A stretch of 44,561 nucleotides of DNA, taken from the NCBI GenBank assembly GCA_023663285.1, contig JAMPHT010000024.1, positions 1 through 44,561 on the forward strand, written 5' to 3'. A program made the position numbers and the translations under genes. Positions 13,205-34,248 of the stretch are shown piece after piece. The notes below the pieces were generated by a model. The model saw only the letters and a list, made by a program, of their open reading frames with translations. It had not been told where the DNA came from and did no database searches. The stretch is from Bacillota bacterium (GTDB taxonomy: Bacteria > Bacillota > Clostridia > Lachnospirales > Lachnospiraceae). The first letter of the stretch is position 1, and each line of letters opens with the position of its first letter.

Positions 13205-13245
13205 TAAAAAAACAGATAGTATAAAAAATCTCCTGCAAAATATTT

Positions 13246-13271: not shown

Positions 13272-13335
13272 CATGAAGCATCACCGCAGCGACACTTTTC
13301 ACTTTGCCGTTTCAGGGTCCTGTTTTGAATATTTG

Positions 13336-18015: not shown

Positions 18016-18465
18016 TCACGGAATAGCATCTTTCATGGAATAAAAGACCATACTCCGCACGGTTTCAAACAGCCGGGCGGCTTCGTACATCAATTCTGTC
18101 TTGTCCGCGTCATTCTCCTCCGGACGCAGGCTGGCGATCCTTTTCAGGCCTGTTGTCACCCTGTTTTCCAGTTCCTGCGCATCTTCGATATACGCGACGG
18201 TGAAGCGGTACTTCCTCTCCAGCTGCGGGTAAAGTTCCTCGAACTTTGCGGAGATCGGGTCGAAAAACTTATAGTAAAAGAAGCTGAATACATCGAAAGG
18301 CCGGTTCCAGCCGTCCTCCCCGTGAAAGACCTCATCCACGTAACCCAGCATGACTTCCGCATAATACCGCATTTTCAGCCCCATACTGCCCCTAGGCTCA
18401 CCCTCAATGATTTCCCTGTATTCCTGTCTGATCTCCTCGTCCAGGGAAAGCTCTTTTTCTCCCAT
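18016..18465 (-). CDS. Unknown soluble protein, cotranscribed with the 18510 gene
   Basis: A 149-residue, mostly helical acidic protein with aromatic-rich segments (DVFSFFYYKFFDP near residue 60). No family is recognised. The start at 18465 is chosen because ACAGGAGGA is eight bases upstream; the longer frame to 18525 overlaps the preceding gene without a ribosome site. It lies 44 bases downstream of the 18510-19013 gene and most likely shares its promoter at 19129-19160, the one with the CRISPR-linked motif. It may be a candidate effector or accessory protein. Confidence 0.65.
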   Translation of the reverse strand: MGEKELSLDEEIRQEYREIIEGEPRGSMGLKMRYYAEVMLGYVDEVFHGEDGWNRPFDVFSFFYYKFFDPISAKFEELYPQLERKYRFTVAYIEDAQELENRVTTGLKRIASLRPEENDADKTELMYEAARLFETVRSMVFYSMKDAIP

Positions 18466-18509
18466 ATATCGTCCTCCTGTCTCATTTTCCCGTTTTGCTT
18501 TCGTCCTTT

Positions 18510-19013
18510 TCACGACACCCTGCACAGGCCGCCGTATCCGTATGTAATGCCGATCCGCATGATCTCGCCGTGCCCGCCGGAGAGGTCCTGCGCATTCCGC
18601 ATTACAAAACCGGCGCTGTACACATAGGCTTCCGGATACAGGATATACGTTTCAATGCCCGAAATATCCTCCCGTTCACGCTCCCATTCCGCTTCCCTGT
18701 CGGAGACATACAGGAAAGAATACTGCACGTCAAAGGGTTCGGGCATCATCATTGTCAGGCACGTCATTTCATTGCGGATCACATGGTAGACAAGGTATCC
18801 GCTCTGCCGTTCAAATTCTTCCACCAGCCTCTTTTCCGCCTCTGACAGAGCATACAGCACCCCCACTCTGTTTCCCTTTCCCGCATAGCTGGCACACACC
18901 TTCCCCTCTTCTTGAAACATCCTGATCACGGACTCTTTCGGCTCATCATACAGCTGCAGCATCTGCATTCTTTTTACCGCTTCGTCGATCCATTTTTCTT
19001 TTCTTTCGTCCAT
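18510..19013 (-). CDS. Unknown soluble protein preceded by the shared promoter-like motif
   Basis: A 167-residue protein. The first 30 residues form a basic helix (MDERKEKWIDEAVKRMQML) and the rest alternates strand and helix, ending in a glycine-rich stretch (GITYGYGG). Proteins starting in this way occur as hypothetical genes in Lachnospiraceae accessory regions, from memory only; no function is known to me. GGGAGG lies upstream of the ATG. A TGCAAC-N18-CTATAGTA element lies 115 bases upstream, the same as ahead of the CARF/sigma operon, which ties this gene to the type III system. Confidence 0.65.
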   Translation of the reverse strand: MDERKEKWIDEAVKRMQMLQLYDEPKESVIRMFQEEGKVCASYAGKGNRVGVLYALSEAEKRLVEEFERQSGYLVYHVIRNEMTCLTMMMPEPFDVQYSFLYVSDREAEWEREREDISGIETYILYPEAYVYSAGFVMRNAQDLSGGHGEIMRIGITYGYGGLCRVS

Positions 19014-19128: not shown

Positions 19129-19160
19129 TACTATAGCGTCGGTTTTCCTGCCCGGTTGCA
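19129..19160 (-). promoter_or_regulatory. ECF-like promoter motif A
   Basis: On the minus strand TGCAAC (19155-19160) is followed after exactly 18 bases by CTATAGTA (19129-19136), then by AGCAGGAAGGCAAGG. Two more copies with identical spacing stand at 24456-24487 and 26912-26943. Seen as a sigma-A promoter (TTGCAA/TATAGT) the spacing would be 20, too long; the AAC core fits ECF promoters better. Confidence 0.65.
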
Positions 19161-19162: not shown

Positions 19163-19450
19163 AAAAGCGCAAAAAAATTCTGTAGGTCTTTTCTACAGAA
19201 CTTTTTGGAACGGGGTACCTTTCGGCTGCATCCGATTCCCTGTAAATGAGTGGGGCGGGAAATACATTTCCACAGAAATGCAACAAAAAGATTGATGGAA
19301 CCGTAGGTACAGATTACACTGTCGGGTATCAATGCCCTACTTCGGGCTCATTCCATTTCTATCCTGCCAATAGCGCCCCGCTTTCCCACTCCTTAAGCAT
19401 AACACAATCCCATACTTTCTGCAAGGAAATTAATTCGCTTTACAGCTTGC
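19163..19450. repeat. Repeat cassette copy 1, with CRISPR-like repeat
   Basis: Shares nearly all of its flanks with 20284-20556 and 20571-20810. It begins with a hairpin (TTCTGTAG 19178-19185 with CTACAGAA 19193-19200) flanked by A and T runs on both sides, a bidirectional terminator. A conserved block follows to about 19289, then a unique 35-base core (19291-19325), then a 38-base CRISPR-like repeat (19326-19363), then a conserved 85-base block. The right end abuts a truncated toxin gene. Confidence 0.75.
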
Positions 19451-20283: not shown

Positions 20284-20556
20284 AAAGCGCAAAAAAATTC
20301 TGTAGATCTTTTCTACAGAACTTTTTGGAACGGGTTACCTTTCGGCTGCATCCGATTCCCTGTGAACGAGTGGGGCGGGAAAATACATTTCCACAGAAAT
20401 TGAACAAGAAGAATGTTTTGATTGCTGTTATAGCGTGACAATGCCCTGTTTCGGGCTCATTCCATTTCTATCCTGCCAATAGCCCCCGCTTTCCCACCCC
20501 TTAAGCAAACACAATCCCATATTTCTGCATGGAAATTAATTCGATTTACAGCTTGC
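20284..20556. repeat. Repeat cassette copy 2
   Basis: Same layout as copy 1: terminator-like hairpin at 20298-20320, conserved block, unique core (about 20412-20434), 38-base CRISPR-like repeat (20435-20472) and conserved leader-like block ending in CAGCTTGC. Confidence 0.75.
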
Positions 20557-20570: not shown

Positions 20571-20810
20571 TGCATCCGATTCCTTGTAAACGAGTGGGCT
20601 GGAAACTAGCTGGCGGTATAGATGATGCTATATTTACCAACTCATTTTTGACTAACAATCAGGAAAACTGTTCCTTGATCTATGGGTGTCAATGCCCTGT
20701 CCCAGGCTCATTCCATTTCTATCCTGCCATAGTGCCCCGCTTTCCCACCTCTTAAGCATAACACAATCCCATACCTTCTGCAAGGAAATTATTCGCTTTA
20801 CCACATTCCA
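20571..20810. repeat. Repeat cassette copy 3 (partial)
   Basis: Starts at the TGCATCCGATTCC word of the trailer block, lacks the terminator hairpin, has a longer unique core of about 80 bases (20606-20685), then the 38-base repeat (20686-20723) and the conserved block. It lies directly after copy 2. Confidence 0.7.
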
Positions 20811-21127: not shown

Positions 21128-22102
21128 TTACCATTCCAAATGATATTTCCCAAACCCAAAGCTGGTATTCTTCCCGATCTGCGTCACCTCGCCCGCCAGC
21201 AGCAGATCCAGCCACTTTTCTGAAATGTCCGTCAGTTCCGCCTTTCCCACAATGCCTTTCAGCATGATATTCTGTCCGTGTCTGGAGGAATACCTGGAAA
21301 TCTCTTTCTGCCTGGCCCACCCGGAGGCCACGGTCAGCGCGGGCTGTTCCGGCGGTTGGAACAGCCTGTACCCGCCACCCTCTTCCCCGATCGCGTTTTC
21401 AAAACAAGACAGTATCCACAGCCTCCGCAGCACCCCGGCGCTCAGGGCTTCCCCTGCAAAAGACTGCTGGAACTGCCCCTGATATTTCAGGCATAAAGGA
21501 GTCTCAAAGACAAGGGATCCTGCAAACGGCTCCCTGTTCCCCGGCTCCGCCTGTTCACAGGCCTGCAGCAGTTTTGCCCTCCTGTGAGCCACATACTCCC
21601 CCAGGGTTTCCCACCGATACCGCTCCATATAGACATTCCGCCCCTCCAAAACGGGCTGTCCATACAGGTTGCGCACCGACAGGACGCGGAACCGGCTGCC
21701 ATGGCTTCCCAGCCCATTCTGCCCAAGGGCGTAAACCGCATTCAGGTACTGGCTGAAATACACTATCGTCCTGCCAAACAGGGTCAGCGTAAATTCCAGG
21801 CGATCCCCCGCCGCAAACTCTTTTCTCCTGTCCGCGCAGCAGAGGGTATATCCCACGCTGTCCCCTGCATGGACGGACTCCGGCAGCTTTTCAAAGCGGG
21901 AATACATCGTCCTCTGGACAATGCATTCGTCCCGGAACCCACAGCTTTCGCACTGCCTGTTGGCAATACAGTTGGCTCGCAGCAGCATTTCCCCGATCCC
22001 TCCGCGGATGGCGGAGACTTTCTCCCGGACTAACTCCGTCTCCTCCTCAAATTCGATCACAAACGTCAATTTTGTATACCTGATCTTTTTATAATCCTCC
22101 AT
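21128..22102 (-). CDS. cas6: Cas6-family pre-crRNA endoribonuclease
   Basis: A 324-residue RAMP protein. It cuts CRISPR precursor transcripts within the repeat to give crRNAs. Cysteines at residues 45, 51, 54 and 60 (CESCGFRDEC) match the zinc-type insertion common in this Cas6 group, and the C-terminus TSFGFGKYHLEW is the glycine-rich loop of the second ferredoxin-like domain. Last gene of the operon with the CARF and sigma-like genes, while the interference genes are in a separate operon. Its catalytic residue cannot be assigned from sequence by eye. The relic CRISPR cassettes lie just downstream. Confidence 0.85.
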   Translation of the reverse strand: MEDYKKIRYTKLTFVIEFEEETELVREKVSAIRGGIGEMLLRANCIANRQCESCGFRDECIVQRTMYSRFEKLPESVHAGDSVGYTLCCADRRKEFAAGDRLEFTLTLFGRTIVYFSQYLNAVYALGQNGLGSHGSRFRVLSVRNLYGQPVLEGRNVYMERYRWETLGEYVAHRRAKLLQACEQAEPGNREPFAGSLVFETPLCLKYQGQFQQSFAGEALSAGVLRRLWILSCFENAIGEEGGGYRLFQPPEQPALTVASGWARQKEISRYSSRHGQNIMLKGIVGKAELTDISEKWLDLLLAGEVTQIGKNTSFGFGKYHLEW

Positions 22103-22164
22103 CCGGTCAACTCCCTCTCAGCGCCTGTTCCACAGCCTGGCGCCTTTCCGCACAACTCCCGTAC

Positions 22165-22527
22165 TCAGGCCGTTCCATATTCCCTGAACCGGACAAACTG
22201 AAATTCCACTTCTTTCTTCCCCGTTGCCGGATCTTCTTTCACTTTCCGCTCACTGCAGGCCGCGACTACCCTGATCCCCCTTGCCTTCAGCCTCGTGACC
22301 ACGGCATAAACCATGCAGAATTCCCCCTGGCACATGACAGCATCGGGACAATATTTCTCAATCTTTTCACATTCTTTTTCCACACAGGCAGTCAGTTCCG
22401 CAGTCCCCATATCCGGCGGCACATTGGGAAAAGGAATGTCCACGATATCCTTCCCCAGCTTCCGCGCCGCACGGATCTGTTTTTCTCCCCAAGCACTGCT
22501 GGGATGATTCGAATAATTTACAAACAC
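22165..22527 (-). CDS. Small CRISPR-linked Rossmann-like protein, candidate ring nuclease or cOA-binding protein
   Basis: A 120-residue protein starting at a GTG that overlaps the sigma-like gene by 10 bases. The opening FVNYSNHPS, the central DAVMCQGEFCMVYAVVTRL and the strand RVVAACSER suggest a compact alpha/beta (Rossmann-like) fold. From memory, similar small proteins occur in type III loci of Clostridia, and the shape recalls the Csx15/Csx16/Csx20 group of ring-nuclease-like proteins, but the family is not confirmed. It may degrade or bind the cyclic oligoadenylate signal to stop the response. It is translationally coupled to the sigma-like gene. Confidence 0.6.
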   Translation of the reverse strand: MFVNYSNHPSSAWGEKQIRAARKLGKDIVDIPFPNVPPDMGTAELTACVEKECEKIEKYCPDAVMCQGEFCMVYAVVTRLKARGIRVVAACSERKVKEDPATGKKEVEFQFVRFREYGTA

Positions 22528-23735
22528 TGGAACACATCCCTTTCTTTCACCAAAAGCGCTTTCACCAGTTCCACATACTTCTTCCGCTCCCTTGAGATCG
22601 TGCTCTTATCCTTTCCCTCCAGTTCCGCGATCACCTTGTCCGAAAAGTCAAAATCCCCCCGCAGAAGCTTCGCGTACACCTCATGGAAATCCGCCGGATA
22701 TTCCGCCAGCGCCCTGTGCAGATATTTTTCATCCAGCAGCTTCCGGTACAGGAAACCGCCCCTGGGTTCCAGCAGCAGATAGAATTCCACATCCCCCGCC
22801 GGTTCCGCAGGATAGGGCTGACCGTTGCCGTCCAGCTTCAGTTCCTTTAACAGGTTGGAGGAAAAAAACAGCTGAATGGTTCTCTTCTCCCGCAGGCCTT
22901 TTCCTGAGTCGATCAGCGCCCATTTTCTCTCGATATTCTCACAGAAAGCTTTCAGCATATCCCTGGCCGCTTCCCGGTCCTCCGCCTCCTCCGTCCCGTT
23001 CCTCTCATCCGCCAGCTGAAATGCCACAGGATCGCCGTCCTCATCCGTTCCCCCGTCCATGGATATGCAGGAAACGGTATCGAACACCAGCGTCCGCACC
23101 AGTTCCCGCGCCTTTGCCGTATACCAGTCTTTTCCCTGACACTCTTCCCGGATCTCGTCCATGATTTTGTCGGGAGACGCTTCTTTTCCCATCCTCTGCA
23201 TCATATTTTTCCTACTGCGCGCCAGCTTCATGATCCTGCACAGATTCCGTTCCGGTATCTCCCCGTCGTATATGCCCATCCCGCTTAAGTCGTTTTTCGC
23301 CGCTCCCATCTGAGCCGCCTGCTTATAGAGCACCCCCAGACAGGCCAGGAAGCTGTATCGCTCTCCCTTCCCGTTCACTCCCGTATAACTGCATACCGCC
23401 TTATTTATGGCTTCCGCAAAGGCCACGTTGTCAATATCCTGCCTGTTTTTCACCGACGCGATATCCTCGTCCATGCCGTATCCCTTTTCCCGCTCCTTAT
23501 GGGCGTCCGTCAGCCGTTCCTGAAACCGCCTGTATGCTCCCGGTCTGTAAGCCTGCATGGCTTCCGTCCAGAAGTCGTCCCGCAGGGGATACCTCCTGAA
23601 CAGATCCAGGCGCTGCTCCTTTCCTTCCCCTCCGCCGGTTCCCACAGGCATCCGGGCAAGCTTTCCCAGGAAATCCCCATGCCTTGCCTCAAATTCTCCG
23701 GCAAGTTCCTCTTTGATATCCTCTCTCCCGTCCAT
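22518..23735 (-). CDS. Divergent sigma-70-like protein linked to type III CRISPR
   Basis: A 405-residue protein. Several parts follow sigma-70 layout. Residues about 105-145 (AFAEAINKAVCSYTG and YSFLACLGVLYKQA) resemble region 2. Residues 183-195 (GKEASPDKIMDEI) and 224-261 (ISMDGGTDEDGD, then LADERNGTEEAEDREAARDM) resemble region 3 and the acidic link before region 4. Residues about 365-395 (VIAELEGKDKSTISRERKKY) resemble the region 4 helix-turn-helix. About 95 residues are inserted before the last part, and the first 100 residues are unmatched. GGAGGACGAAAGG precedes the ATG; the CARF gene ends 16 bases upstream. It could direct polymerase to the TGCAAC-N18-CTATAGTA sites. The call is by eye and needs a profile search. 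Confidence 0.6.
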   Translation of the reverse strand: MDGREDIKEELAGEFEARHGDFLGKLARMPVGTGGGEGKEQRLDLFRRYPLRDDFWTEAMQAYRPGAYRRFQERLTDAHKEREKGYGMDEDIASVKNRQDIDNVAFAEAINKAVCSYTGVNGKGERYSFLACLGVLYKQAAQMGAAKNDLSGMGIYDGEIPERNLCRIMKLARSRKNMMQRMGKEASPDKIMDEIREECQGKDWYTAKARELVRTLVFDTVSCISMDGGTDEDGDPVAFQLADERNGTEEAEDREAARDMLKAFCENIERKWALIDSGKGLREKRTIQLFFSSNLLKELKLDGNGQPYPAEPAGDVEFYLLLEPRGGFLYRKLLDEKYLHRALAEYPADFHEVYAKLLRGDFDFSDKVIAELEGKDKSTISRERKKYVELVKALLVKERDVFQCL

Positions 23736-23751
23736 CCTTTCGTCCTCCGGC

Positions 23752-24357
23752 TTATGATCTGATCATTCTTTTTAGCGCTTCCTGCATTTCCTCGATTCCC
23801 AGTCCATGCATTTCATCGATCACATCCCCCAGCATCTGGAATACCGTCAGATCGTACAGGCAGGCTCCGGTCATTCTCCCGGCCTCCCTTTTCACCTCTC
23901 CGTAATAGACGCCGTCCACCTCACAGTCCTTTATTTTGGGGAGAAAACTCAGGGCATACAACAGGACGGCGGACATGGGCTTCGTTCCAAAGGTGATATC
24001 CCCATAGACCAGCGATCCCTCCGGTATCTCTTCCAGAATGCGCATGAGCAGTTCAAGGCTCACGGCGTCGCTCTGCTCCTCCGCCACGGAGATCGCCCTG
24101 ACTTTCTCCTCCCCTATGCCAAGCTCCGCCAGTTCGCCCAGAAACGCCGCGTAATTATCCGGCGTATCCGCAGTATCCGGACGCACGACCAGCACCGTTA
24201 CGTCGTCTCCCGGATCCTGATGACCGGCGATCACCGGAATAATGGGAAAGCTGGACTCCCGGTTATGCTCCAGCGCAAAGCCCTTCGGCTCATACAACAG
24301 CTTCAGCAGATCTCCCCTTGCCTGGAGAGAGATATTGGTAAGATAGGTTTTTTTCAA
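23752..24357 (-). CDS. Stand-alone CARF-domain protein
   Basis: A 201-residue protein that looks like a CARF domain without an effector domain. The ligand-loop motif GDITFGTKPMSAV at residues 119-131 corresponds to the DxTHG/TGGTKxM loop that binds cyclic oligoadenylate, and VDGVYYGEV near 148 is the following strand with its tyrosines, as in the neighbouring Csx1-type protein. Only a short helical tail follows. The start is a TTG at 24357 with AAAGGAGG placed nine bases upstream. First gene of the operon with the sigma-like gene, the small Rossmann-like gene and cas6. It may sense the signal and control the sigma-like protein, or act as a ring nuclease. Confidence 0.75.
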   Translation of the reverse strand: MKKTYLTNISLQARGDLLKLLYEPKGFALEHNRESSFPIIPVIAGHQDPGDDVTVLVVRPDTADTPDNYAAFLGELAELGIGEEKVRAISVAEEQSDAVSLELLMRILEEIPEGSLVYGDITFGTKPMSAVLLYALSFLPKIKDCEVDGVYYGEVKREAGRMTGACLYDLTVFQMLGDVIDEMHGLGIEEMQEALKRMIRS

Positions 24358-24455: not shown

Positions 24456-24487
24456 TTCCATAGCGCCGGTTTCCCTGCCCGGTTGCA
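24456..24487 (-). promoter_or_regulatory. ECF-like promoter motif B
   Basis: TGCAAC (24482-24487) and CTATGGAA (24456-24463) on the minus strand, 18 bases apart, followed by AGCAGGAGGGCAAAG. It stands 98 bases ahead of the CARF start. The spacer is almost the same as in motif A. Its TTGCAA is a palindrome shared with the divergent promoter of the csx1-type gene. Confidence 0.65.
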
Positions 24488-24547: not shown

Positions 24548-26113
24548 ATGAGCAGACACTTTATCACCGTACTGGGTACGGGCAACTATTCGGAATGTAT
24601 TTATGAGACAGAGGACGGACAGTTTGCATATAAGACGCCCTTTGTGCAGATCGCCGTTTTAAAGTATGTCATGCCCGACTTCAGGCGCGGCGATAAGATC
24701 ACCGTCTTTGCCACGGAGAAAGCGGAAGAAAAGAACTGGAATACCACTATAACGGCAACGCCCCAAAATACTGAAGGCAAATCCAAGCCTATACAGAAAA
24801 AACTGCGTTTCGGGAAAAAGACCTTTCATCTGCAGTTCCAGATGGAATCAGCGGCCGAAGCCGACAGCCTGTCCTCCGGCGGGACGGAGAGAAAGGGGCT
24901 GGACGCTTTATTGCAGGAAGAATTTCCCGATGTGCAGAGAACGCTGGTGCGGATACCCGAGGGCAGGAACGCCGGGGAACTGAACCAGATCTTTGAATGT
25001 ATTTACGGAGCGCTTTCCAACGGCGAAACCGTATTCTTTGACTTTACGCACGGCCTCCGCAACCTTCCCATGCAGGCGCTGGCAGTGGTAAACTATGCCA
25101 AGGTATTAAAAAGGGTCAAGGTCAGGGGACTCTACTACGGCGCTTTTGAACTGGGAACACTACAGGACGACGGTCTGCGGCATGTGCAGATCCTGGATAT
25201 GTCTTTCTGCAGTACGCTGCAGGACTGGACCAGCGCGGCTGAAGCTTTCGTGAAAACAGGCAGCAGCAATCAGATCAAGACTCTGTATCAGCGGCTGAAC
25301 GACACAGATAATGCAGATCCCGGATACAAGGACATTCTGAACAGTCTTTATGATCTGACAAACTGCCTGGAGACCTCAAGGGGAACCATCGATTCCGCAA
25401 ACCGGACGGACGCCACCCCTCCAAACAGCCGAAACAGTATCTATTGCGCCTACAAAACTTTTCAGGATCAATATAAGGAACTGTATTCCGGGCGTCTTGC
25501 CGCCCCGGATCATCCTGCCGCCGACCAGCCCATAGAGCGTCTGATCGAATATATCTACAGGGATGTGAAGATTCTAAACAGCAGAAAGCTTTTCCTTGAA
25601 AGAGACGGACGACAGGTCAAGATGAGATATACTGCCCTGGGAATGTCGGCGGTACAATGGGCGCTGGACAAAAACCTGATCCAGCAGGGCTTTACTGCCC
25701 TGAATGAAACGATCATCAGTTATATCTGTGAGTTGTACAATGTTCCGGCAAAATTCTGGCTCTGGCGGGAGGACGTCAGGAGAACGGTTCGAAGCGTGTC
25801 CGTGGACTACGAGGACGAGCGATATCCGCAGGACGTCAGGGAAAAGTATTGGATCCCGGACTGGAAAAAGAAGAATCCGGATCTTGTTGAAAAATTTGGG
25901 GAACAGGCGAAGGAAATATTGCTCACCCTTCCCGAAAGCGTATTTATGCTTGTCAAACAGATAGCCAATGACCGAAATTCCCTGAACCACTTCGGCTTTT
26001 CAAACGATGGGACCCTGATTGCCTATGATGTCCTCAGAAGCCGTCTTGTGGACAGATACCAGCGGATGAACCAGATTCTGGAAAGCACCCCCGGTATCAC
26101 AGGTTCCGTCTGA
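24548..26113 (+). CDS. CARF-HEPN ribonuclease, Csx1/Csx2 (TM1812) type
   Basis: A 521-residue ancillary RNase of type III immunity. The N-terminal CARF domain starts HFITVLGTGNYSECIYE and carries the DFTHGLRNLPM signature at residues 165-175 (the DxTHG loop that binds cyclic oligoadenylate made by Cas10). The C-terminal part is helical and ends with the HEPN motif R-x4-H at 476-481 (RNSLNH), the RNA-cleaving residues. On ligand binding it would degrade RNA without sequence specificity. It is transcribed away from the CARF/sigma operon from its own sigma-A-type promoter, so it can be present before induction. GAGGG precedes the ATG. Both active motifs are intact. Confidence 0.88.
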   Translation: MSRHFITVLGTGNYSECIYETEDGQFAYKTPFVQIAVLKYVMPDFRRGDKITVFATEKAEEKNWNTTITATPQNTEGKSKPIQKKLRFGKKTFHLQFQMESAAEADSLSSGGTERKGLDALLQEEFPDVQRTLVRIPEGRNAGELNQIFECIYGALSNGETVFFDFTHGLRNLPMQALAVVNYAKVLKRVKVRGLYYGAFELGTLQDDGLRHVQILDMSFCSTLQDWTSAAEAFVKTGSSNQIKTLYQRLNDTDNADPGYKDILNSLYDLTNCLETSRGTIDSANRTDATPPNSRNSIYCAYKTFQDQYKELYSGRLAAPDHPAADQPIERLIEYIYRDVKILNSRKLFLERDGRQVKMRYTALGMSAVQWALDKNLIQQGFTALNETIISYICELYNVPAKFWLWREDVRRTVRSVSVDYEDERYPQDVREKYWIPDWKKKNPDLVEKFGEQAKEILLTLPESVFMLVKQIANDRNSLNHFGFSNDGTLIAYDVLRSRLVDRYQRMNQILESTPGITGSV

Positions 26114-26122: not shown

Positions 26123-26159
26123 GCAAAAGGGGGATGGAGTATGGCTACTCCGCTTTTGC
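26123..26159. terminator. Nested hairpin between convergent genes
   Basis: GCAAAAG (26123-26129) pairs with CTTTTGC (26153-26159) and GGAGTA with TACTCC inside. It lies where the csx1-type gene and the J-domain gene converge and includes the last codons of the latter. Plausible bidirectional terminator without a long T run. Confidence 0.4.
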
Positions 26160-26840
26160 ATACCTTAAGAGCAGATTGTAAGCCGTGTTGATCCTCTTGC
26201 ACATTTCTTCATCCCCTCCCCCTGTATTATCCGGATGAAACTGTTTTATCAGCGCATTTCTGGCTTTTTTCAGTTCCGCCCTTGTATAGGACTCTTTCAC
26301 CCGCATCAGCTGTCTTGCCTGCTGAAGGGAGGAGGTCTGTTTCTGCTTCCGCTGCTGCGCTTTCTCCCTCTCCGCTCTTTCTCTCTCCGCTTTCTCCCTC
26401 TCCAGGCGCTCTCTCCGCATCCTCTCCTGTTCGGCTCTCTCCCGCCGGATCTTCTCCTGCTCCTCTTTCTCCTTTTGTATTTTTTCCCATTCCATCCCAC
26501 AGGCCGTCTTTTCCCATTTCCGCCTGTCATACAGCTGGGCGTAGGGCCTGGACTTTCTCTTGATGGCGACGATAACGCTCGTCATAAGGGCGTCCGCTAT
26601 GTAGGCGGAAGCCGCCCAGGCAAAGCGCAGAAGCAGATACGCCCACACCAGGCTTCCAAAGCTGCCGATCGGCCACATTTTGACCACGATAACCAGTGTC
26701 AGGACAACATCCATAAACAGCATCAGCAGGACGCCCTGGCAATCAGCCTGTAATTTTTTCTCCGCCGCCCTGTAAACGGCGTTTCCCAGAAACGCGGCGC
26801 ACCCTGTTTTCCATTCCTTTATCCTTTTCGTCATGACCAT
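26145..26840 (-). CDS. Membrane-anchored J-domain protein
   Basis: A 231-residue protein. Two hydrophobic segments lie near residues 35-60 and 65-95, then a long highly charged coiled coil (about residues 125-175, repeated REKAERER-type words) and a C-terminal J domain with the HPD motif at residues 202-204 (IKQFHPDNTGG). J domains stimulate the ATPase of Hsp70 (DnaK) and recruit it to clients; here it would do so at the membrane. It is monocistronic between the Csx1-type gene and the RAMP operon and has promoter motif C 71 bases upstream, which links it to the CARF/sigma operon. GGGAGGAGGA stands just ahead of ATG. J-domain proteins are not standard type III parts. Confidence 0.85.
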   Translation of the reverse strand: MVMTKRIKEWKTGCAAFLGNAVYRAAEKKLQADCQGVLLMLFMDVVLTLVIVVKMWPIGSFGSLVWAYLLLRFAWAASAYIADALMTSVIVAIKRKSRPYAQLYDRRKWEKTACGMEWEKIQKEKEEQEKIRRERAEQERMRRERLEREKAERERAEREKAQQRKQKQTSSLQQARQLMRVKESYTRAELKKARNALIKQFHPDNTGGGDEEMCKRINTAYNLLLRYAKAE

Positions 26841-26911: not shown

Positions 26912-26943
26912 TACTATAGGGCTGGTCCTTGCGAACAGTTGCA
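26912..26943 (-). promoter_or_regulatory. ECF-like promoter motif C
   Basis: TGCAAC (26938-26943) and CTATAGTA (26912-26919), 18 bases apart on the minus strand, then GACAGGAGGGCAGG. The spacer differs in sequence from A and B, so the two boxes and the spacing are what is conserved. Confidence 0.65.
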
Positions 26944-26972: not shown

Positions 26973-28859
26973 TTATTCCGGTTTTACCACCGACCTGATC
27001 TCCGGGAGCGCCGCTTTTCTGCTCTGGTACTCCCTTGCATTGATATTCATGTATCTGGTCTTTCCGTCCTCCGGGATCCTCCGGGAATCTTTCATCAGAA
27101 AGAACTCCTGGATATGTGGCAGCCGGTCTATGGTCCTGCTGCCCAGATACCGGTTTATCTCCTCCTTATAACATTCTATGGCCTGATCGATCTCTATCCC
27201 GCAGAAAGGATCCGCCGCCAGTTCTTCCGACTGATAGGCGCGCTGCATATCCAGCTTCCCGGCTTTTGTGATCCGCACGGATATCCTCCCGTAGCCGTAG
27301 GATTTTGCCTTGCCCACGTTCATCTGGGAACCCTCGTTCAGCCTCACCGCCCATAACAGCAGACCCAGTTCGTCCTCCGTCAGGTTCCAGAAACGGATCT
27401 TCCCGGCAAATTTCGCCCCTGCCGCCAGAGGCCGTATGGCTGACGCCATTATGTCATTTCCGCCAAAGGCCTCTGCCACTGGCGCTTTATGAAGCCAGTA
27501 CTGCTTCGCCCCGCGCAGCTGAAAACCATCCGTATTATATGTTTTCTCCGCTTTCCCGTCCTGCTTCAGATAATCGAGATAGCTGGAAGGCTTGGGCTCC
27601 GCCAGGATCAGCTTCCGTTCCGCCCCGCATCCCGCATCATTCTGCAGTACCGCATCCGAAAAGGAAAGCTTGGACTTATAGCTTTTTTCCGGCGAAGCGT
27701 ATCCGAACAGCGCCTTGGCATAGTCCACGCCGCCTGCTTTCCCTATCTGCTTCAGCCCCTCTTTCACGCTATGGTCATAAAACAGCCGCAGTCTGGGCGT
27801 AAAGCCGAAATATAGTCTGTCCCCTGACCGGATATAGAAAACGGGACGCATCTCTCCCTCTTCGGGCAGATCGAAGCACTGTTTTCCCCCAAACTGCTTC
27901 AGCGAATTTTCCCGCTTTTTCATATCGATCCGAAACACCCTGACGTCCTCATCAGGGATACGGAGACTGTCCTTTCCCTTATCCACTTCCGGAATGATAT
28001 AGACCGCTTTTTTCTTATTCATCCTGCCTGTGCTGACAGCGTATCCCTGATTTTTGTACTCTCCGGGATATCCTACCGCTGTAACATCTTTCCCATGGCT
28101 CACTTCATAGGACACGGGCAAGTAATAGGGATGATACTCATCGTTGGGCGTTTCCTTATAATCCACTCTGCCGTCCCGTTCACTGCGGCTGAACGCACGA
28201 AATTCATGCTGCAGAATACTCCTGCCTTTCTGGAGGAAAAAGCCATAGGAAAACCGATCCCCATGTTTCAGATAATCATTGATGATCTTCCTCTCACTTA
28301 AGACATAATAATTCATTTTGTGAAAATCCCGATCGACAGAATCTATTTTGGTCTGATAGATCACATACTCTCCGCCTTCATTGGACACATACCCTGCCTG
28401 TACATTCTGCAATACGCTGAACCGGTAACTTTTATTCCCGTCCCGAAGTACCAGCTGCTTCGCCCCCAGGATATTGTTATATCGCGCTTTCTCCGCCCCA
28501 TATGCCACAGTGCGGTACATCAGCGTGTAATCGTCAATATCCTCCTCATAGCCGCACAGCCCCAGCACCTGCACATTATTCCGGATCAATCCCCGCATGG
28601 TGCTGCCCGGAATCGCGGATCTGCCTTTTGCATCCCGGTAAAAATGCCCTGTCCCGTCGTCGATCATGACGGGGGTCTCCGCAGTGACCTCATAGGAAAT
28701 CTCCCCCGTGACCAGATTCTCCTCCATGGAATCATGGTCGGTAAGTTTTCCTGTTGGATATTGATAGGGCTTATCATAAAAAGAGATAAAATTATAGGGG
28801 GCGCCCACGTATTTCTGATTCCCGCCGCTGTTTGCCTGATATGATTTTCTGTCTCCCAT
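26973..28859 (-). CDS. RAMP protein, TIGR03986-like (Cas7-type)
   Basis: A 628-residue RAMP-superfamily protein of the type III effector complex. The N-terminal segment GAPYNFISFYDKPYQ resembles the YNFV start of the TIGR03986 CRISPR RAMP family. AIPGSTMRGLIRNNVQ near residue 83 is the characteristic glycine and helix segment of Cas7 folds, and KAKSYGYGRISV near residue 540 is the C-terminal glycine-rich loop. It should bind crRNA in the backbone. It is the last gene of the interference operon; its start is 12 bases after the Csx19-like stop, with GTAGGAGG as ribosome site. No defect visible. Confidence 0.8.
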   Translation of the reverse strand: MGDRKSYQANSGGNQKYVGAPYNFISFYDKPYQYPTGKLTDHDSMEENLVTGEISYEVTAETPVMIDDGTGHFYRDAKGRSAIPGSTMRGLIRNNVQVLGLCGYEEDIDDYTLMYRTVAYGAEKARYNNILGAKQLVLRDGNKSYRFSVLQNVQAGYVSNEGGEYVIYQTKIDSVDRDFHKMNYYVLSERKIINDYLKHGDRFSYGFFLQKGRSILQHEFRAFSRSERDGRVDYKETPNDEYHPYYLPVSYEVSHGKDVTAVGYPGEYKNQGYAVSTGRMNKKKAVYIIPEVDKGKDSLRIPDEDVRVFRIDMKKRENSLKQFGGKQCFDLPEEGEMRPVFYIRSGDRLYFGFTPRLRLFYDHSVKEGLKQIGKAGGVDYAKALFGYASPEKSYKSKLSFSDAVLQNDAGCGAERKLILAEPKPSSYLDYLKQDGKAEKTYNTDGFQLRGAKQYWLHKAPVAEAFGGNDIMASAIRPLAAGAKFAGKIRFWNLTEDELGLLLWAVRLNEGSQMNVGKAKSYGYGRISVRITKAGKLDMQRAYQSEELAADPFCGIEIDQAIECYKEEINRYLGSRTIDRLPHIQEFFLMKDSRRIPEDGKTRYMNINAREYQSRKAALPEIRSVVKPE

Positions 28860-28871
28860 CCCTTCCGCCTC

Positions 28872-29246
28872 CTACGCGATTCCCATGAGTCTTGTGAGCG
28901 CTACCGACGCCTGACCATCCTCGTCATATTCCAGATGTTCGCAGACACACAGGTATTTTCCCGGTCCGAAATAACGATCCTGCAGCGCATATTTCTTTAC
29001 CAGACAGTCCCCGTCCATGGTTCCTGTTACCCGCACCGCCCGCCATTCGCCCTCTTCCCCGTAGAGATGCATTTCCTTATCCTCGCCGAAAAACCGCGCT
29101 TCCAGACATTCATCCCAGTCAGGCTCCTTCAGATCCGCTGTTCTGCAAAAGGTAATGCCGCTCATCCCGTATACCAGGGCATACGGATACTCCCCTATAT
29201 GCTCCAGGGCCTTACCCGCATCCATCCTCTCCGCTGTGTAACTCAT
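28872..29246 (-). CDS. csx19: Csx19-like type III-D protein
   Basis: A 124-residue protein. The segment CLEARFFGEDKEMHLYGEEG near residue 50 resembles the ARxFxxxxE pattern of the Csx19 (TIGR03984) family that is specific to type III-D loci. The ATG at 29246 overlaps the stop of the double-Cas7 gene as ATGA and has GGGGAGG upstream; a longer frame to 29327 lies inside that gene and is rejected. The role of Csx19 is not well established; it may serve as a structural part of the complex. Its position between RAMP genes agrees with that. The match is by eye, so the name is moderately sure. Confidence 0.6.
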   Translation of the reverse strand: MSYTAERMDAGKALEHIGEYPYALVYGMSGITFCRTADLKEPDWDECLEARFFGEDKEMHLYGEEGEWRAVRVTGTMDGDCLVKKYALQDRYFGPGKYLCVCEHLEYDEDGQASVALTRLMGIA

Positions 29247-30589
29247 CCTGCCGCCTCCCCCCTGTGTACTGCCTTCATGCACCTTGAAACGATTCCCGCC
29301 GTATCCGTCACGACGCCCTTTTCCCATTCGATTGTGGCGGTATCATGGTTTTTACGATCCCGGATCACTATGCGTTCCACGTCGATAAAGCCTTTCCCCA
29401 CGCCATATCCGCTGCCCACGCTCATCAAACCTGCTGCCATATCCCGAAGCGCCAGCAGGAGCAGCCCGCAGGTACTGTCCGGATGATTCCGGTCATTCAC
29501 CAGCATATGGAACTCGACCCTGCCGGACACATTTTTCTCGTTAAACAGCCCGCCGTGGATGACCCCTCCCGTAAACTTGTCGAGATGGATCCTGCTCCTC
29601 ACAGGCGCCTGATCGTTGTCCTCCCTGTTCCCCACTACCGCATCAAAAAACACAATATTGCCTGTCTCTCCGAAAGTTTCTTCCATGACGCTGCCATTGC
29701 CCAGATAGGAGGCGATCTTTTCCATCTGGCTCCTGACGGCGCCCTTGAGCGAACTTCCCGGCACGATATATTCTTTTGCCGCGTTCCTGATATTCATACT
29801 GTCAGGCGCGTCCTTCCCATAATCCTGCACCGCGATGCTTTTCACAAGCAGTTCGCCCTCCGTGCTTCCCGTCACCGTCACTTCATACGCCGCCGCAGAC
29901 GCTGCAGGAGTCTGCATCTCGTGGAAAATATCCTCATAAGCATCGTCCCCAAGGGAGTCCTCATCCGCCCATTGTCTGCGGTCCTCCGCCTTTTTCATAT
30001 CAAAGGCCTTTCTTTTCAGGCTCTTCAGTTCCATAAAGCCGCAGCCGCTGCTCTTCTGCCCGCCGAACTGTACGTTTCCCTGATGAACCGCCGAAAACGT
30101 CTCCTCCAGTTCCTCCCGGAAGCCGTCGTCGTAGAGATATACGGAAAATCCGAATTCCGCGCCTGCCCCGATATATCCCGTGTTAAATCTATGACCCGCC
30201 TGCCTGTCCGTTCCCTTGATCGTACTGCCTGCACAGGTTCCGGTCTTTGGGTCGATACTGACCCGGGGGCGGAGTTCCAGGATCAGGTGTTCCTCTGAAA
30301 ACAGCCCGTCGCTGAACCTGACCCTGCTGGCGCCGCTGCCGGAATCCGTGTTTTCCCCGGAACGAATATCGCCAAAAAGTCTCGCCGCCTGCGCTTCACC
30401 GTGAATCTTCCCGTAATACTGCCGCAGCACGCCGGCCAGGCCGGAAGCCTGTATAAAGGGAACGTTGGATACCGGATGCACCAGCACTTCCTCCTGATCC
30501 CCGGATGCGCTTCCGATGTGGAAAGGCTGCGTGCAGACTGCAGTCACCAGATATTTTATCACTTTCTGATATTTCATGTTTCCTGTCAT
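29243..30589 (-). CDS. Double-Cas7 (Csm3-like) fusion RAMP protein
   Basis: A 448-residue protein with two Cas7/Csm3-type RAMP domains in tandem. The first (about residues 10-205) shows PFIQASGLAGVLRQYYGK and the loop GGQKSSGCGFMEL; the second (about 230-430) shows YIVPGSSLKGAVRSQMEKI and the loop GSGYGVGKGFIDV. Fused Cas7 units are known in type III-D and III-E systems and build the crRNA-binding backbone; in Csm3 a conserved aspartate cuts target RNA, and SSLKGAVR regions lie close to it. Start directly follows the Csx10 stop. An internal ATG at 30577 is a possible alternative start. Confidence 0.82.
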   Translation of the reverse strand: MTGNMKYQKVIKYLVTAVCTQPFHIGSASGDQEEVLVHPVSNVPFIQASGLAGVLRQYYGKIHGEAQAARLFGDIRSGENTDSGSGASRVRFSDGLFSEEHLILELRPRVSIDPKTGTCAGSTIKGTDRQAGHRFNTGYIGAGAEFGFSVYLYDDGFREELEETFSAVHQGNVQFGGQKSSGCGFMELKSLKRKAFDMKKAEDRRQWADEDSLGDDAYEDIFHEMQTPAASAAAYEVTVTGSTEGELLVKSIAVQDYGKDAPDSMNIRNAAKEYIVPGSSLKGAVRSQMEKIASYLGNGSVMEETFGETGNIVFFDAVVGNREDNDQAPVRSRIHLDKFTGGVIHGGLFNEKNVSGRVEFHMLVNDRNHPDSTCGLLLLALRDMAAGLMSVGSGYGVGKGFIDVERIVIRDRKNHDTATIEWEKGVVTDTAGIVSRCMKAVHRGEAAG

Positions 30590-32119
30590 TTACGCGCCTC
30601 CTGTTTCTGTCCCTGCTGTTTTTTTGTCATACCGTATCATTCTTATGAGCAGCTCCAGCTTATATTTCAGTTCCTCCTCTTCGGTGAGCAGCCTGGATTT
30701 CGGAACTCCCATAACACTCTCTTTCTGCTTCGTACTGACGGACAGCAATGTTTCCAGATCGGTGTCAAATACGCGGTGTATATACTTTTTCAGTTCTCCG
30801 ATACTGTTTCTGGCTTTCTGTATATTGCTGTTCTCTTCCTTGTCAAGGGTATGGCTCAGATACCCGTCGATGTATCTCACAGCCTCACGGGGTTCATATT
30901 GATATGCGGCTGCAAAGGATTCCAGGATACCCAGCTGACTGTTCGCGATCTTTCCTTTCGGAAACGGATGCTCTACCACATACGCATTTATTTTCCTGTC
31001 CAGCAGATTTCGGTAATAGCATCCCGCAGCGATCTGCAGGGTTTCCCCATCTTCCGCATATCCCTCCTCTGCGGCGGGAACCATCCTTTCTACAGGCAGT
31101 GCGGCTTCCTTATATCTGATTTTTTCATATCCGCCCAGGAACATGACCCTTCCCAGACCTTCGTTCAGACGGACGCCGATTCCCCGGTGGCAGAGCGCAA
31201 GCATTCTTTCCCTTGTAAACGTTCCGCTATATTTTAAGTGGAACACGCTGCCCTGCTCATACATGACCGCCGACGGCGTCCTGGTTCTCCATGTGTTGTT
31301 GAATCCCCTTACATCCACCGTGGATGTGGAGCAAAAAGCTGCCTCCAGATCGGTAACGCCCATCTTTTCCGCCAGCGCGGCACAGTCCAGACCGCACAGT
31401 TCTCCCTTTTCATCCCGCATGACCGTATTGGATAAGAGCATCATATAACATTCCTTTTCCAGATCCTCTGCGGGCAGATACTCCTCAAAGGGAAGCCTGT
31501 CCGTATATTCACAACGGATCACCCTGCATTTGCCAAGTCCTGCGGTGCGGGCGTTTCCCACTGTGAAATCTCCCGCAAACACATCCCGTATCCTCTCCCT
31601 GAGGCTGTCATCCTCCAGGGCGATATAGCCTGTAAAAGTATAACCCGCGCAGATATGCTCGCTTCGGAATACATTCCGCTTTTCCTCATTGATCGTGATC
31701 TTAAGGTCTGAACCGGTATCCACATTATAATAGTAAATGCAGTCACCCTCCATACGGCAGAATCTCCCCAGGGACGCCCGCTTTTTCCCTTCCTCAAACT
31801 CCCCCCGGATCACCACGTTATCTATTTCTTTCTTCCCCCGCTGTTCCGTCTTGTCCTCATAAAAGCCTTTCGGCGAAGGAATCAGTTCTTTCTCCCCGTC
31901 TGTCAGATAGGCGTTCAGATACCTGACCCTGGTGGAAAGCAGACTCCTTTTCATGGTCTCGAAATCCGCTTCCTGGGCCAGCGCATTCATCACAACGCCC
32001 CTTAACGCCGTTCCCGGTATGTATCGCAGCGTCACAGTCTGTCCGCTCTGGCTGCTGCTGTCATCGGCAATCCGCACCGGCTCCAGGTTCTGAAAAACAA
32101 TTTTTAAATATTCCCCCAT
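30590..32119 (-). CDS. csx10: Csx10-like RAMP protein (Cas5-type) of type III-D
   Basis: A 509-residue RAMP. The N-terminus MGEYLKIVFQNLEPVRIAD and TLRYIPGTALRGVVMNAL near residue 27 correspond to the Csx10 family, the Cas5 equivalent of type III-D that caps the crRNA 5' end next to Cas10. FTVGNARTAGLGKCRV near residue 185 is the glycine-rich loop. The C-terminal 150 residues are helical and basic. The start is 12 bases after the Cas7 stop; the next gene starts right at its own stop, so translation is coupled. No frameshift seen. Confidence 0.8.
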   Translation of the reverse strand: MGEYLKIVFQNLEPVRIADDSSSQSGQTVTLRYIPGTALRGVVMNALAQEADFETMKRSLLSTRVRYLNAYLTDGEKELIPSPKGFYEDKTEQRGKKEIDNVVIRGEFEEGKKRASLGRFCRMEGDCIYYYNVDTGSDLKITINEEKRNVFRSEHICAGYTFTGYIALEDDSLRERIRDVFAGDFTVGNARTAGLGKCRVIRCEYTDRLPFEEYLPAEDLEKECYMMLLSNTVMRDEKGELCGLDCAALAEKMGVTDLEAAFCSTSTVDVRGFNNTWRTRTPSAVMYEQGSVFHLKYSGTFTRERMLALCHRGIGVRLNEGLGRVMFLGGYEKIRYKEAALPVERMVPAAEEGYAEDGETLQIAAGCYYRNLLDRKINAYVVEHPFPKGKIANSQLGILESFAAAYQYEPREAVRYIDGYLSHTLDKEENSNIQKARNSIGELKKYIHRVFDTDLETLLSVSTKQKESVMGVPKSRLLTEEEELKYKLELLIRMIRYDKKTAGTETGGA

Positions 32120-32131
32120 ACTGCGCCCCCT

Positions 32132-32704
32132 TTACCCGATCACCGTCAGTTTCACTTTACCGAAACCTCTGTTACGCATCGTTCCCACCCACTTGATCAG
32201 GGACAGGACTTCCTTCACGAGCGGTTCGTCTTTCCGGGAACATCTTAACTCGCTGTAAAAGTTCAGCCCCCTGTTAATACACCTGCACTGCCTCAGGGAA
32301 CCCTCCTGTACGATTCCCTCCGGCGATATGGCGGTAAATGTCCTGATATGGGACAGCGCATCCAGCACCGTATCGGCCTGGTTCCCGCCTGTCTCTGACA
32401 GGATCTGCCGCTTTACATAACCGGATAAGGCAAAGTCCGAAAACACAAGCCTGTCCTCCTTCCGGACCCCGTGGTCGCCGCCTGCTCCCAGAAGCCTGTT
32501 CATTTCCGCCCTGGCTGCTTTTTCATCCGGCATGGTCCATGCAAGGTAATTTCCCATTTCTTCCCTGAAAATCCCCTTGAATGTTCCGCCCTTATAATAA
32601 GGGAATCCATTCTCATCGCTGAGAATGGAAATATCCTCGCCTCCCGGCACGCTCTCCCCGCTGCCAAAGACAGCGTCCGATATCAACTGCATCCTTATCT
32701 TCAA
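32132..32704 (-). CDS. Cas7 (Csm3-like) RAMP protein
   Basis: A 190-residue single-domain RAMP that should form repeated backbone subunits on the crRNA. DENGFPYYKGGTFKGIFREEM near residue 30 is the usual motif around the conserved glycine and the basic helix, and MRNRGFGKVKLTVIG at the C-terminus is the glycine-rich loop. Shorter than typical Csm3 (about 220 residues) but complete at both ends. It lies 17 bases after cas10 and 12 before csx10. Whether the catalytic aspartate is kept cannot be settled by eye. Confidence 0.8.
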   Translation of the reverse strand: MKIRMQLISDAVFGSGESVPGGEDISILSDENGFPYYKGGTFKGIFREEMGNYLAWTMPDEKAARAEMNRLLGAGGDHGVRKEDRLVFSDFALSGYVKRQILSETGGNQADTVLDALSHIRTFTAISPEGIVQEGSLRQCRCINRGLNFYSELRCSRKDEPLVKEVLSLIKWVGTMRNRGFGKVKLTVIG

Positions 32705-32721: not shown

Positions 32722-34176
32722 TTACTCCAGCGCAAGAAACGTGTCTATCAGTTCGATGGCGTCAAACAGCAGCTTATGGTCGTTGCCCAGATCCCGTCTC
32801 AGCAGTTCCTCTATCTTATGGAACCGAATAAAATACCAGGCCTCATCCTGCCCCCGCTTTAAAACCGTTCTAAGTTCCTTGAGCGTTCCCCTTGCGCAGC
32901 TTTCCTCCTTCTGAAGCTTTCGGAGCAGTCCCCTGACTTCCCGGTAGTTTCGGAATTCTTTCTCTCCCGCTGCGGCCTGCTCCGCCCTGACAACATAGGG
33001 ACGCCCTGACACCGGATTCCCGTCCGCATCGAAATAATGCCGCCTGATCTCCTCCAGCGTGTCTTTGATCTCGCCGAACTCCACATGCCAGTCCATGGCC
33101 GATACATCGCTCCCGGAGCCGTCGCCGCTTAGGGACGCCCCATACTTTTTCGCATTGCTGCACAGCATCTCCGCCAGTTCATACGCCTTGTAGAACGGAT
33201 ACTTCTGGTGTACAATGGCAACCCCCGCACAGGCGGCATAGCCTTCTTTGTCCACGCTGTTTCTCCTGCCGCCAAGTTTATCGATAAATGCGGCCGCACA
33301 TTCCAGCCCAATCCTTCCCTCCGCCACGAAACAGATATCGTCTCCCGCAGTGATGATCCTGCGGACAGGGAAATTGTTCCCCTCCAGGCTTAATTCCGCC
33401 AGCTTTCCGCCCCTGATATTGTCCGCCACATACTCGGACATCTCCTGATATGCCGCCTTAAAATCCCTGTCAATAGATTCGCTGAATTCCCGCAGCTTCT
33501 TTTTATAGTCCTCCCAGTCCAGATCCCCGCATTTTTGCTGCAGCTTTTCCACACGTTTTCCCATTGCGTTGCCGTCGATATGAACCACCGCGATAAAGCC
33601 GGATTCCCCCTTTGTACAGCCCAATTCCTCAAATCGGGATACCCGCCGGAACCCCGCCGCCATCAGGCTTTCGTCCATCTTTTCCTCTTTCCCTGGCATT
33701 CCGGAGTTCTCTCCCGCGTCATACAGAATCGGTTCACGGGTATTCACATCCGTCTGTTCCACCCCAAAACTGCCCTGGTGAAAGGCGGCGCGGCGCAGGG
33801 ATTTCTTTTTTTCCAGCGCTTTTGTCAGCTCTTTCAGGTTTTCCGCCGGGGTTTTATCCTCTTCGTACCGGATCGTTTTCCCAAAGATCTCTATGCCGGG
33901 ATACTCTTTCCGGATGGCTGCCGTGACCACTCCGGTAAAGCGTACCGCCTGTTCCAGGGTGGGAAATTCCAGCACGGTGTGGCCGCCGCCGGAATAGACC
34001 AGGTGGTTCTCCCTGTTGAATACTTGCTGATCTCCCACTGTCTGTTCCAGATAATCCGCATCCGTGACCCAGGCTATCACCGCCGAATTCAGAATATTCT
34101 CCTTCAGTTTGTTGCTCTGAAATATGTATGCCTGTTTCTGCGATACCTCTAAAATTGTCAGGTAACGTTCGCCCAT
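32722..34176 (-). CDS. cas10: Cas10, small variant without HD domain
   Basis: A 484-residue Cas10-type protein, about half to two thirds of the usual size. No N-terminal HD nuclease domain is present: the protein starts with the first palm (YLTILEVSQKQAYIFQSNKL, and GGGH at residues 63-66). The second palm has HIDGNAMGK at 199-207 and TAGDD at 276-280, replacing the usual GGDD by AGDD but keeping both metal-binding aspartates, so cyclic oligoadenylate synthesis looks possible while DNA cutting does not. The helical C-terminus is the D4-like domain. ATG 34176 with GAGGAGG eight bases upstream is chosen; the frame to 34245 is not coding. First gene of the operon. Confidence 0.85.
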   Translation of the reverse strand: MGERYLTILEVSQKQAYIFQSNKLKENILNSAVIAWVTDADYLEQTVGDQQVFNRENHLVYSGGGHTVLEFPTLEQAVRFTGVVTAAIRKEYPGIEIFGKTIRYEEDKTPAENLKELTKALEKKKSLRRAAFHQGSFGVEQTDVNTREPILYDAGENSGMPGKEEKMDESLMAAGFRRVSRFEELGCTKGESGFIAVVHIDGNAMGKRVEKLQQKCGDLDWEDYKKKLREFSESIDRDFKAAYQEMSEYVADNIRGGKLAELSLEGNNFPVRRIITAGDDICFVAEGRIGLECAAAFIDKLGGRRNSVDKEGYAACAGVAIVHQKYPFYKAYELAEMLCSNAKKYGASLSGDGSGSDVSAMDWHVEFGEIKDTLEEIRRHYFDADGNPVSGRPYVVRAEQAAAGEKEFRNYREVRGLLRKLQKEESCARGTLKELRTVLKRGQDEAWYFIRFHKIEELLRRDLGNDHKLLFDAIELIDTFLALE

Positions 34177-34248
34177 CTTCCGCCTCCTCGATTCCTTTTC
34201 CACAACCCTGTATCCGCTGAATTTCATACAGGATTGCCTGCACATTGT

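Follow-up and report, generated by a model that had tools for sequence, protein, structure and literature searches.

The 44,561-nucleotide (nt) contig analysed here (the window), from a Lachnospiraceae assembly of 3.07 Mb and 86% completeness, contains a type III-D CRISPR (clustered regularly interspaced short palindromic repeats) locus in which a stand-alone CARF gene is followed directly by the gene for a 405-residue protein related to sigma-70 factors. Sequence comparisons suggest that these two genes probably constitute a signal-to-transcription switch built into type III loci. Cas10d, Csx10/Cas5, Csx19, and Cas7-IIId were all recognized by PADLOC (E-values for the effector genes of 3.4e-167 for Cas7_IIId, 6e-43 for Cas5_IIId, and 4.9e-12 for Csx19). 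Downward from position 24357 on the minus strand, the genes encode the CARF-only protein, the sigma-like protein, Csx20, and Cas6, with 16 nt between the CARF and sigma-like genes and a 10-nt overlap between the sigma-like gene and csx20. The open reading frames (ORFs) and their order agree with the first-pass annotation, in which the third product was described only as a small Rossmann-like protein; that product is Csx20, which matched the NCBIfam model at an E-value of 2e-10, although its 41.1 bits fall short of the model's cut-off (70).

The CARF-sigma pairing is confirmed by its recurrence. Three CARF queries against 84,980 species genomes retrieved 17 loci, all with a same-strand ORF directly 3′ of CARF, and a first hidden Markov model (HMM) of the sigma-like proteins matched 13 of the 17 partners at E-values of ≤1e-22 (L013, L015, and L016 among these were training members of the HMM). 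The partners in L020 to L023 are more divergent and were not among the 13. Ten additional distinct CARF-only loci were obtained with 18 CARF queries from 392 order, 391 class, and 398 phylum genomes, CARF-HEPN-type matches in frames of >300 amino acids (aa) being excluded from the count (L093 was inspected). With a Treponema plasmid and the window, the set comprises 29 loci, including L007 from a metagenome-assembled genome, which is almost identical to the window (96% for CARF and 98% for the partner). A same-strand ORF of at least 200 aa directly follows CARF in 28 of the 29. The gap between the genes is ≤50 nt in 25 of 26 loci, 10 of which have overlapping genes, with starts called mechanically. 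Conserved columns in 18 CARF relatives include GTK.M from the ITFGTKPM motif. A leave-one-out HMM test was run without L007 (the 98% copy of the window), L012 (truncated at a contig end), and the partnerless locus of G557, and 22 of 26 partners were the top match of their own locus at E-values of ≤0.005. When L007 and L012, both matched by the first HMM, are counted, recognizable partners are present in 24 of the 29 loci. In the reverse direction, the sigma-like protein used against 397 family genomes found three other genomes, and a CARF gene lies directly 5′ in all of them. The window CARF matched two plasmid records, one holding the Treponema pair and the other a partial csx2 from Deinococcus, and the L032 partner had no match among plasmids. 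No relative of the CARF profile was found in viral contigs, and its six matches in the PDB (E-values of 0.056 to 0.83) include no CARF protein. In G1335, a CARF-only gene is followed by a gene for a 642-aa protein (L122, 9782-11710) that failed the partner test and may be a highly divergent sigma-like protein or something else.

The comparisons further indicate that the pair is conserved and co-inherited more than expected by chance. Across 18 loci, CARF similarity tracked partner similarity with a Spearman rho of 0.68 (0.67 with Cas10 removed; none of 999 permutations as high), versus 0.23 for CARF and Cas10. The window and L008 share 76% identity in CARF and 54% in the sigma-like protein but only 29% in Cas10, whereas the window and L017 share 44%, 28%, and 48%, respectively, which indicates that the two genes have travelled together, as a single module, from one Cas backbone to another. 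Absence of the pair from all other genomes, which the first-pass annotation had named as counting against its idea, is not what is seen: the pair recurs across loci with different Cas backbones. In G304 (L113/L114), the pair heads a cluster with VWA (TerY-like), SspH-like, kinase-like, and MkoA-like genes; 32 kb of this genome compared with 21 cas and Csx1 reference proteins gave a match to the CARF alone. The pair on plasmid pTS2 of Treponema saccharophilum (L110, 8001-9587) is followed by AAA ATPase and VWA genes, and no other cas gene is annotated across ~93 kb of the record, the gene table of which is incomplete. PADLOC places three of the CARFs, those from the window, from G304, and from the Treponema plasmid, in its CARF2--CARF families (PDLC01820-01823). 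No PADLOC model matched the sigma-like partner, at E-values of up to 1 for the window protein and up to 0.01 for the G304 partner. The G304 cluster also includes a WXG-like protein, named by eye.

A divergent relationship of the partner to sigma-70 is well supported by profile comparisons. The reference profile comprised 29 sigma factors from 13 genomes (29 of 30 fetched loci passed a motif filter). A 12-member partner profile aligned to it in hhalign with a probability of 79%, an E-value of 1.5e-5, and a score of 48.5, compared with a maximum of 21.5 in 105 shuffles after one artefact was set aside. Four shuffle artefacts were set aside in all, three of them near a score of 130 (one with the 12-member and two with the first version of the 22-member profile); one of the four was inspected and consisted of two aligned columns, and the other three were assumed to be alike. 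A 22-member partner profile reached a probability of 94% and an E-value of 9.6e-8 (reversed control, 0.26% and 0.23), and its alignment is collinear over residues 109 to 405, covering regions 2.2 to 2.4, region 3, the 3.2 loop, and region 4.2, with a large insertion ahead of region 4.2. The ten divergent partners matched the 12-member partner profile with a probability of 86% and a score of 50.6. A 13-member partner profile had three PDB matches at E-values of up to 10, all of them sigma factors (0.19 to 1.9), and phmmer found no PDB match for the L032 partner. A sigma HMM ranked the 26 partners as a group above 315 background ORFs, with a P of 1e-11 that ignores kinship. Single sequences gave weak matches to sigma families. 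The top NCBIfam match of the window protein was RpoD_Cterm (E-value of 0.0026; 17.4 bits versus a cut-off of 354), none of its Pfam matches came close to a cut-off, and the highest single-sequence sigma score was 19.3 bits versus a cut-off of 42.9 (TIGR02937, L032). Others were SigI (L020, 0.0025; L028, 0.041), ECF and FliA (L032, 0.00067 and 0.0042), and cyanobacterial RpoD (L019, 0.011); the type III-E sigma factor was matched by one relative only (L023, 0.096). The sigma regions proposed in the first-pass annotation were recovered in part: single-sequence searches returned no curated match, profile-profile comparison aligned regions 2.2 to 4.2, and the profile similarity points to sigma-70 rather than to a different fold.

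In addition, the window contains three copies of a promoter-like element sharing TGCAAC-N18-CTATRG, one before the CARF-sigma operon and two before neighboring genes. Its occurrence before both the operon and nearby genes supports a working, dedicated sigma factor, and the element is predicted to represent the dedicated promoter class of the sigma-like protein. The consensus of ten sites from three genomes is TTTTTGCAAC-N8-AAAACCGG-N2-CTATA, followed by AAGCAGG. The element is non-palindromic and consists of two blocks 18 nt apart. This spacing is built into the pattern, and scans with spacings of 17 to 19 nt returned 18 for the sites in the window genome, G677, and G1583. Beyond the three copies in the window, one exact copy occurs elsewhere in the 3.07 Mb of its genome. 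With two mismatches allowed, the window has 5 occurrences of the pattern where chance predicts 5.14, and therefore only exact or matrix-scored sites were used. The site at 24458-24487 faces away from the CARF-HEPN gene.

Among 11 genomes of the same genus, G677 also carries the pair and has two exact copies of the element, both within its own CRISPR locus. One lies ~70 nt before cas10, at the head of an operon whose end is CARF-sigma, and the other lies directly before an orthologue of the J-domain gene that follows one of the window sites. Nine same-genus genomes with no CARF match contain one exact copy in 28 Mb, and the reversed pattern has four copies across all eleven. At that rate 0.003 copies are expected per 25 kb, so that two in the G677 locus have a P of ~4e-6, a probability that uses the pattern derived from the window and not from G677. 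The J-domain proteins of the window and G677 share 45% identity over 242 residues, and the site spacers agree at 7 of 18 positions, with both blocks intact. The J domain falls 1 bit short of the Pfam cut-off in the window protein, and the orthologues from G677 and G1583 exceed that cut-off. Within the genus, the J-domain gene is rare, occurring in 3 of 121 genomes, namely, the window genome (G000), the genome of L007 or a twin of it, and a genome without CARF, in which the match is partial (33%). Altogether, J-domain orthologues stand behind the element in three genomes.

G1583, the genome of L008, has five same-strand sites within 7 kb, the last of which heads an operon running from a signal peptidase gene through cas6 and cas10 to CARF-sigma. 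From the 43 matches with at most one mismatch in this genome, ~0.2 sites would be expected in the stretch (P of ~1e-6). One of the five sites was known beforehand, and the last letter of the pattern was loosened to fit it, so four count as new. Another site precedes the J-domain orthologue (38% identity), whose start codon lies ~20 nt past CTATAT. The remaining ones precede ClpP with a TraG-like ATPase, a 263-aa protein, and an orthologue (53%) of the 167-aa protein encoded behind the third window site; this last gene lies ~580 to 640 nt downstream, which makes its site the least convincing. In a held-out test, a matrix built from the three window sites alone scored the G677 sites at 34.5 and 29.4 and the G1583 sites at 35.4, 28.8, 22.0, 17.4, and 16.7, against a background maximum of 13.4 in 22 other loci (415 kb) and 14.5 for a non-site in L010. 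Variants recovered by the ten-site matrix alone in G1584 (24.6 and 13.8) and G1585 (23.7) were kept out of the ten sites, as they do not stand out with the window-only matrix (3.9 for the better G1584 variant; 14.5 for the G1585 variant, equal to the L010 non-site). A weaker variant in G1584 precedes an ORF-csx1-csx20-cas6-cas10 operon, and one at L174 11164 lies near a CRISPR locus before nrdG/nrdD-like genes at 11270-13446, named by eye. A weaker variant in the genome of L011 precedes a GTPase gene pair (14271-15863; IIGP/AIG1-like, Pfam) located near the CARF-sigma pair, and another GTPase pair, named by eye, has a similar location in L017 (26-1660).

Type III Cas10 proteins produce cyclic oligoadenylates (cOA) that activate ancillary proteins (PMC11229360, PMC12409355), and members of the Csx20 family degrade cyclic tetra-adenylate (cA4) (PMC12409355). 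In the proposed mechanism, Cas10 meeting its target RNA would produce cOA, and cA4 is the most likely messenger since it is the substrate of Csx20 family members. A CARF dimer would bind the messenger and, in its ligand-bound state, either free the sigma factor (anti-sigma mode) or activate it (co-activator mode). The data do not separate the two modes; the anti-sigma mode is moderately preferred because sensor and sigma factor are co-produced from a seemingly autoregulated operon, like many sigma/anti-sigma pairs. The sigma factor would then take RNA polymerase to promoters of the consensus type, amplifying its own operon and, in relatives, the cas operon as well. The local regulon would consist of the J-domain membrane protein and the 167-aa protein and, in relatives, ClpP with the TraG-like ATPase and perhaps GTPases. 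Meanwhile, Csx1 would act as an RNase and Csx20 would reset the signal. Cas10d of the window has no HD dipeptide within its first 120 residues, and its cyclase motif is AGDD in place of GGDD. In diguanylate cyclases, a motif with alanine at the first position can be active. The Cas10 motif is EGDD or DGDD instead of GGDD in L013, L014, L015, and L021, and cyclase activity therefore cannot be assumed for every locus.

It is plausible that CARF itself gates the sigma factor upon binding cOA, as the first-pass annotation had suggested, and that interpretation is partly supported overall. Its description of the switch as protease-free agrees with the window proteins scanned: no Lon, SAVED, or CHAT family was found by PADLOC among ten of them, with the J-domain protein compared with Pfam only and the 190-aa ORF left out. 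In G1583, a ClpP gene stands behind a promoter-like site. The fuller proposal is a protease-free cOA-to-sigma switch in which CARF is a messenger-gated anti-sigma or co-sigma factor and the sigma-like protein has its own promoter class and a compact, self-amplifying regulon. It further holds that the module may become detached from cas genes and come to serve other operons, as in G304 and on the Treponema plasmid, and as a whole its chances appear slightly better than even.

A number of observations weigh against a sigma switch of this kind. Among the 29 loci, G557 is the sole one with no partner after CARF. Four of the 26 partners (L020, L021, L117, and L122) failed the leave-one-out test, which also returned a false match, the CARF of L113 (E-value of 1.2e-4); three of the 22 successes (L022, L023, and L116) are weaker than this false match, and 21 of the 24 recognizable partners exceed it. 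In Pfam, NCBIfam, and PADLOC, no single sigma-like protein scored above a curated cut-off, several partners had no sigma match in the Pfam and NCBIfam scans, and non-sigma families reached similar E-values (Sol_i_2, 0.00012 in L018; iron repressor helix-turn-helix, 0.00019 in L032). The ten divergent partners alone aligned to the sigma profile with a probability of 2% and a score of 24.4 (14.1 in 60 shuffles), the sigma HMM reached E-values of <0.05 for only 3 of 26 partners, and the tryptophan pair characteristic of sigma region 2.4 is absent. The promoter-like element was defined from the window sites, and none precedes the window's own cas10 operon. With one mismatch allowed, the element is not commoner than its reversed pattern across either the window genome (8 versus 15) or G1583 (43 versus 59); what stands out is its clustering at the locus. 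No site was found in L012 to L019 and the more distant loci scanned, save a poor match with a 19-nt spacer in L018.

Three other explanations deserve consideration. The CARF-only protein may be a ring nuclease resembling Crn1, or a cOA sponge, that damps the signal to Csx1 and exerts no control over the sigma-like protein, which merely keeps the locus expressed. CARF-type ring nucleases are a known class (PMC12409355), and the signal to the CARF-HEPN effector of the window would need damping. However, the operon already holds a member of a ring nuclease family, Csx20, and CARF co-diverges with its partner rather than with Cas10 and retains it where no cas gene was recognized nearby, in G304 and on the Treponema plasmid; this explanation is unlikely. 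A very doubtful one is that CARF is an anti-sigma factor removed by proteolysis after cOA binding, with a host protease such as Clp or Lon making the cut. Both known CRISPR sigma pathways rely on a protease (PMC12751052, PMC10028731), and the ClpP gene of G1583 would fit such a route, but no protease family was recognized among the ten window proteins scanned, and ClpP lies near the pair in G1583 only among seven loci searched with tblastn.

The identity of the partner raises another alternative, namely, that it is a sigma-derived DNA-binding protein that has lost sigma function, the element being an operator for it or for another protein. The weak sigma similarity, the missing tryptophan pair, and the large insertion before region 4.2 are compatible with such a loss. 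The profile alignment nevertheless keeps regions 2.2 to 2.4, region 3, the 3.2 loop, and region 4.2 in order, and the non-palindromic form of the element, with its two spaced blocks, and its placement ~20 nt before the J-domain start in G1583 are promoter-like; loss of sigma function seems very improbable. A switch in which CARF gates a working sigma factor is the preferred reading.

The proposed pathway is distinct from both protease-dependent routes, Calp and type III-E. In Calp, the SAVED-Lon protease CalpL cleaves the anti-sigma CalpT and frees the sigma factor CalpS (PMC12751052, PMC11229360). The window system resembles Calp in joining type III CRISPR, a second messenger, and a sigma-factor output, but it pairs a stand-alone CARF directly with the sigma-like protein, and no SAVED or Lon protein was found among the ten window proteins scanned. 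In type III-E CASP, Cas7-11 is accompanied by the RNA-activated Csx29 protease, which cuts the inhibitor Csx30 and frees CASP-sigma (PMC10028731). This too is a CRISPR locus with a sigma-factor output, but according to that account it works without a cyclase signal, and CASP-sigma clearly belongs to the ECF sigma factors; the window effector is of type III-D with Cas10d, not Cas7-11/Csx29/Csx30, and its gRAMP matches are far under the cut-off. CARF sensing is also coupled to transcription in Csa3 and RtcR (PMC8699464, PMC4012209, PMC7790460). In Csa3, CARF is fused to a winged helix, and RtcR acts via sigma-54, while in the window CARF and the sigma-70-type protein are separate products. A 2025 classification (PMC12669027) does not use the word sigma in its main text and mentions transcriptional regulators, in a general way, as effectors of type III systems. 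The novelty suggested in the first-pass annotation agrees with the literature matches listed, which lie outside preprints and most subscription papers: among them, no title or abstract opening describes a CARF-sigma pair; a dedicated promoter for the operon of the pair and local genes is a new prediction here.

Activated nucleases and membrane proteins that cause damage directly account for most of the known output of type III CRISPR systems. If the switch is real, it would offer two proteins for converting a cyclic nucleotide into promoter activity, and the type III response would also be transcriptional and self-amplifying, a second wave of immunity. Invader detection would then probably activate a limited number of defence genes. 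The predicted promoter would make the regulon findable by sequence, so that defence genes such as that for the J-domain membrane protein could be listed by site, and type III reprogramming of the cell would be directly testable in Escherichia coli or Bacillus subtilis.

Table 1. Features of the window, with positions counted from its first nucleotide
Feature	Position	Strand	Remarks
CARF-only protein	23752..24357	-	TTG start; PADLOC CARF2--CARF, E 8.4e-56, residues 1-200; proposed cOA sensor
Sigma-like protein, 405 aa	22518..23735	-	Profile alignment to sigma-70, residues 109-405
Csx20	22165..22527	-	PADLOC E 3.8e-36; predicted ring nuclease (off-switch)
Cas6	21128..22102	-	PADLOC E 1.5e-59; Pfam PF10040 above cut-off
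Csx1/Csm6-type CARF-HEPN protein	24548..26113	+	PADLOC CARF2--CARF_HEPN, E 1.3e-79; divergent from the CARF-sigma operon
Cas10d	32722..34245	-	PADLOC Cas10d, E 2e-113; cyclase motif AGDD; proposed signal source
Type III-D effector genes, block	26973..32704	-	
Cas7	26973-28859	-	Type III-D effector
Csx19	28872-29327	-	Type III-D effector
Cas7	29243-30589	-	Type III-D effector
Cas5/Csx10	30590-32119	-	Type III-D effector
190-aa ORF	32132-32704	-	Assumed RAMP, from position alone
Promoter-like site TGCAAC-N18-CTATGG	24458..24487	-	~100 nt 5′ of the CARF-sigma operon; proposed autoregulation
Promoter-like site TGCAAC-N18-CTATAG	26914..26943	-	Precedes the J-domain membrane protein gene
231-aa protein with C-terminal J domain	26145..26840	-	Proposed target; hydrophobic N-terminal part (by eye)
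Promoter-like site TGCAAC-N18-CTATAG	19131..19160	-	Precedes the 167-aa protein gene
167-aa protein	18510..19013	-	Proposed target; G1583 orthologue (53% over 156 aa) also preceded by a site of this type
169-aa ORF	18016..18525	-	Overlaps the 167-aa protein gene; no Pfam match

The 169-aa ORF is probably in the same operon as the 167-aa protein gene (Table 1). The CRISPR locus lies between duplicated stretches at 16709-16914 and 34292-34994 (99% over 105 nt and 87% over 93 nt) and may have been inserted there; one of the two stretches falls within an ORF at 34295-34642 that appears HicB-like by eye. A 73-nt repeat is present in three copies (19326-19398, 20435-20507, and 20686-20758), which are possibly collapsed or remnant CRISPR arrays, and its reverse complement contains a string resembling, by eye, one found 5′ of cas10 in L009.

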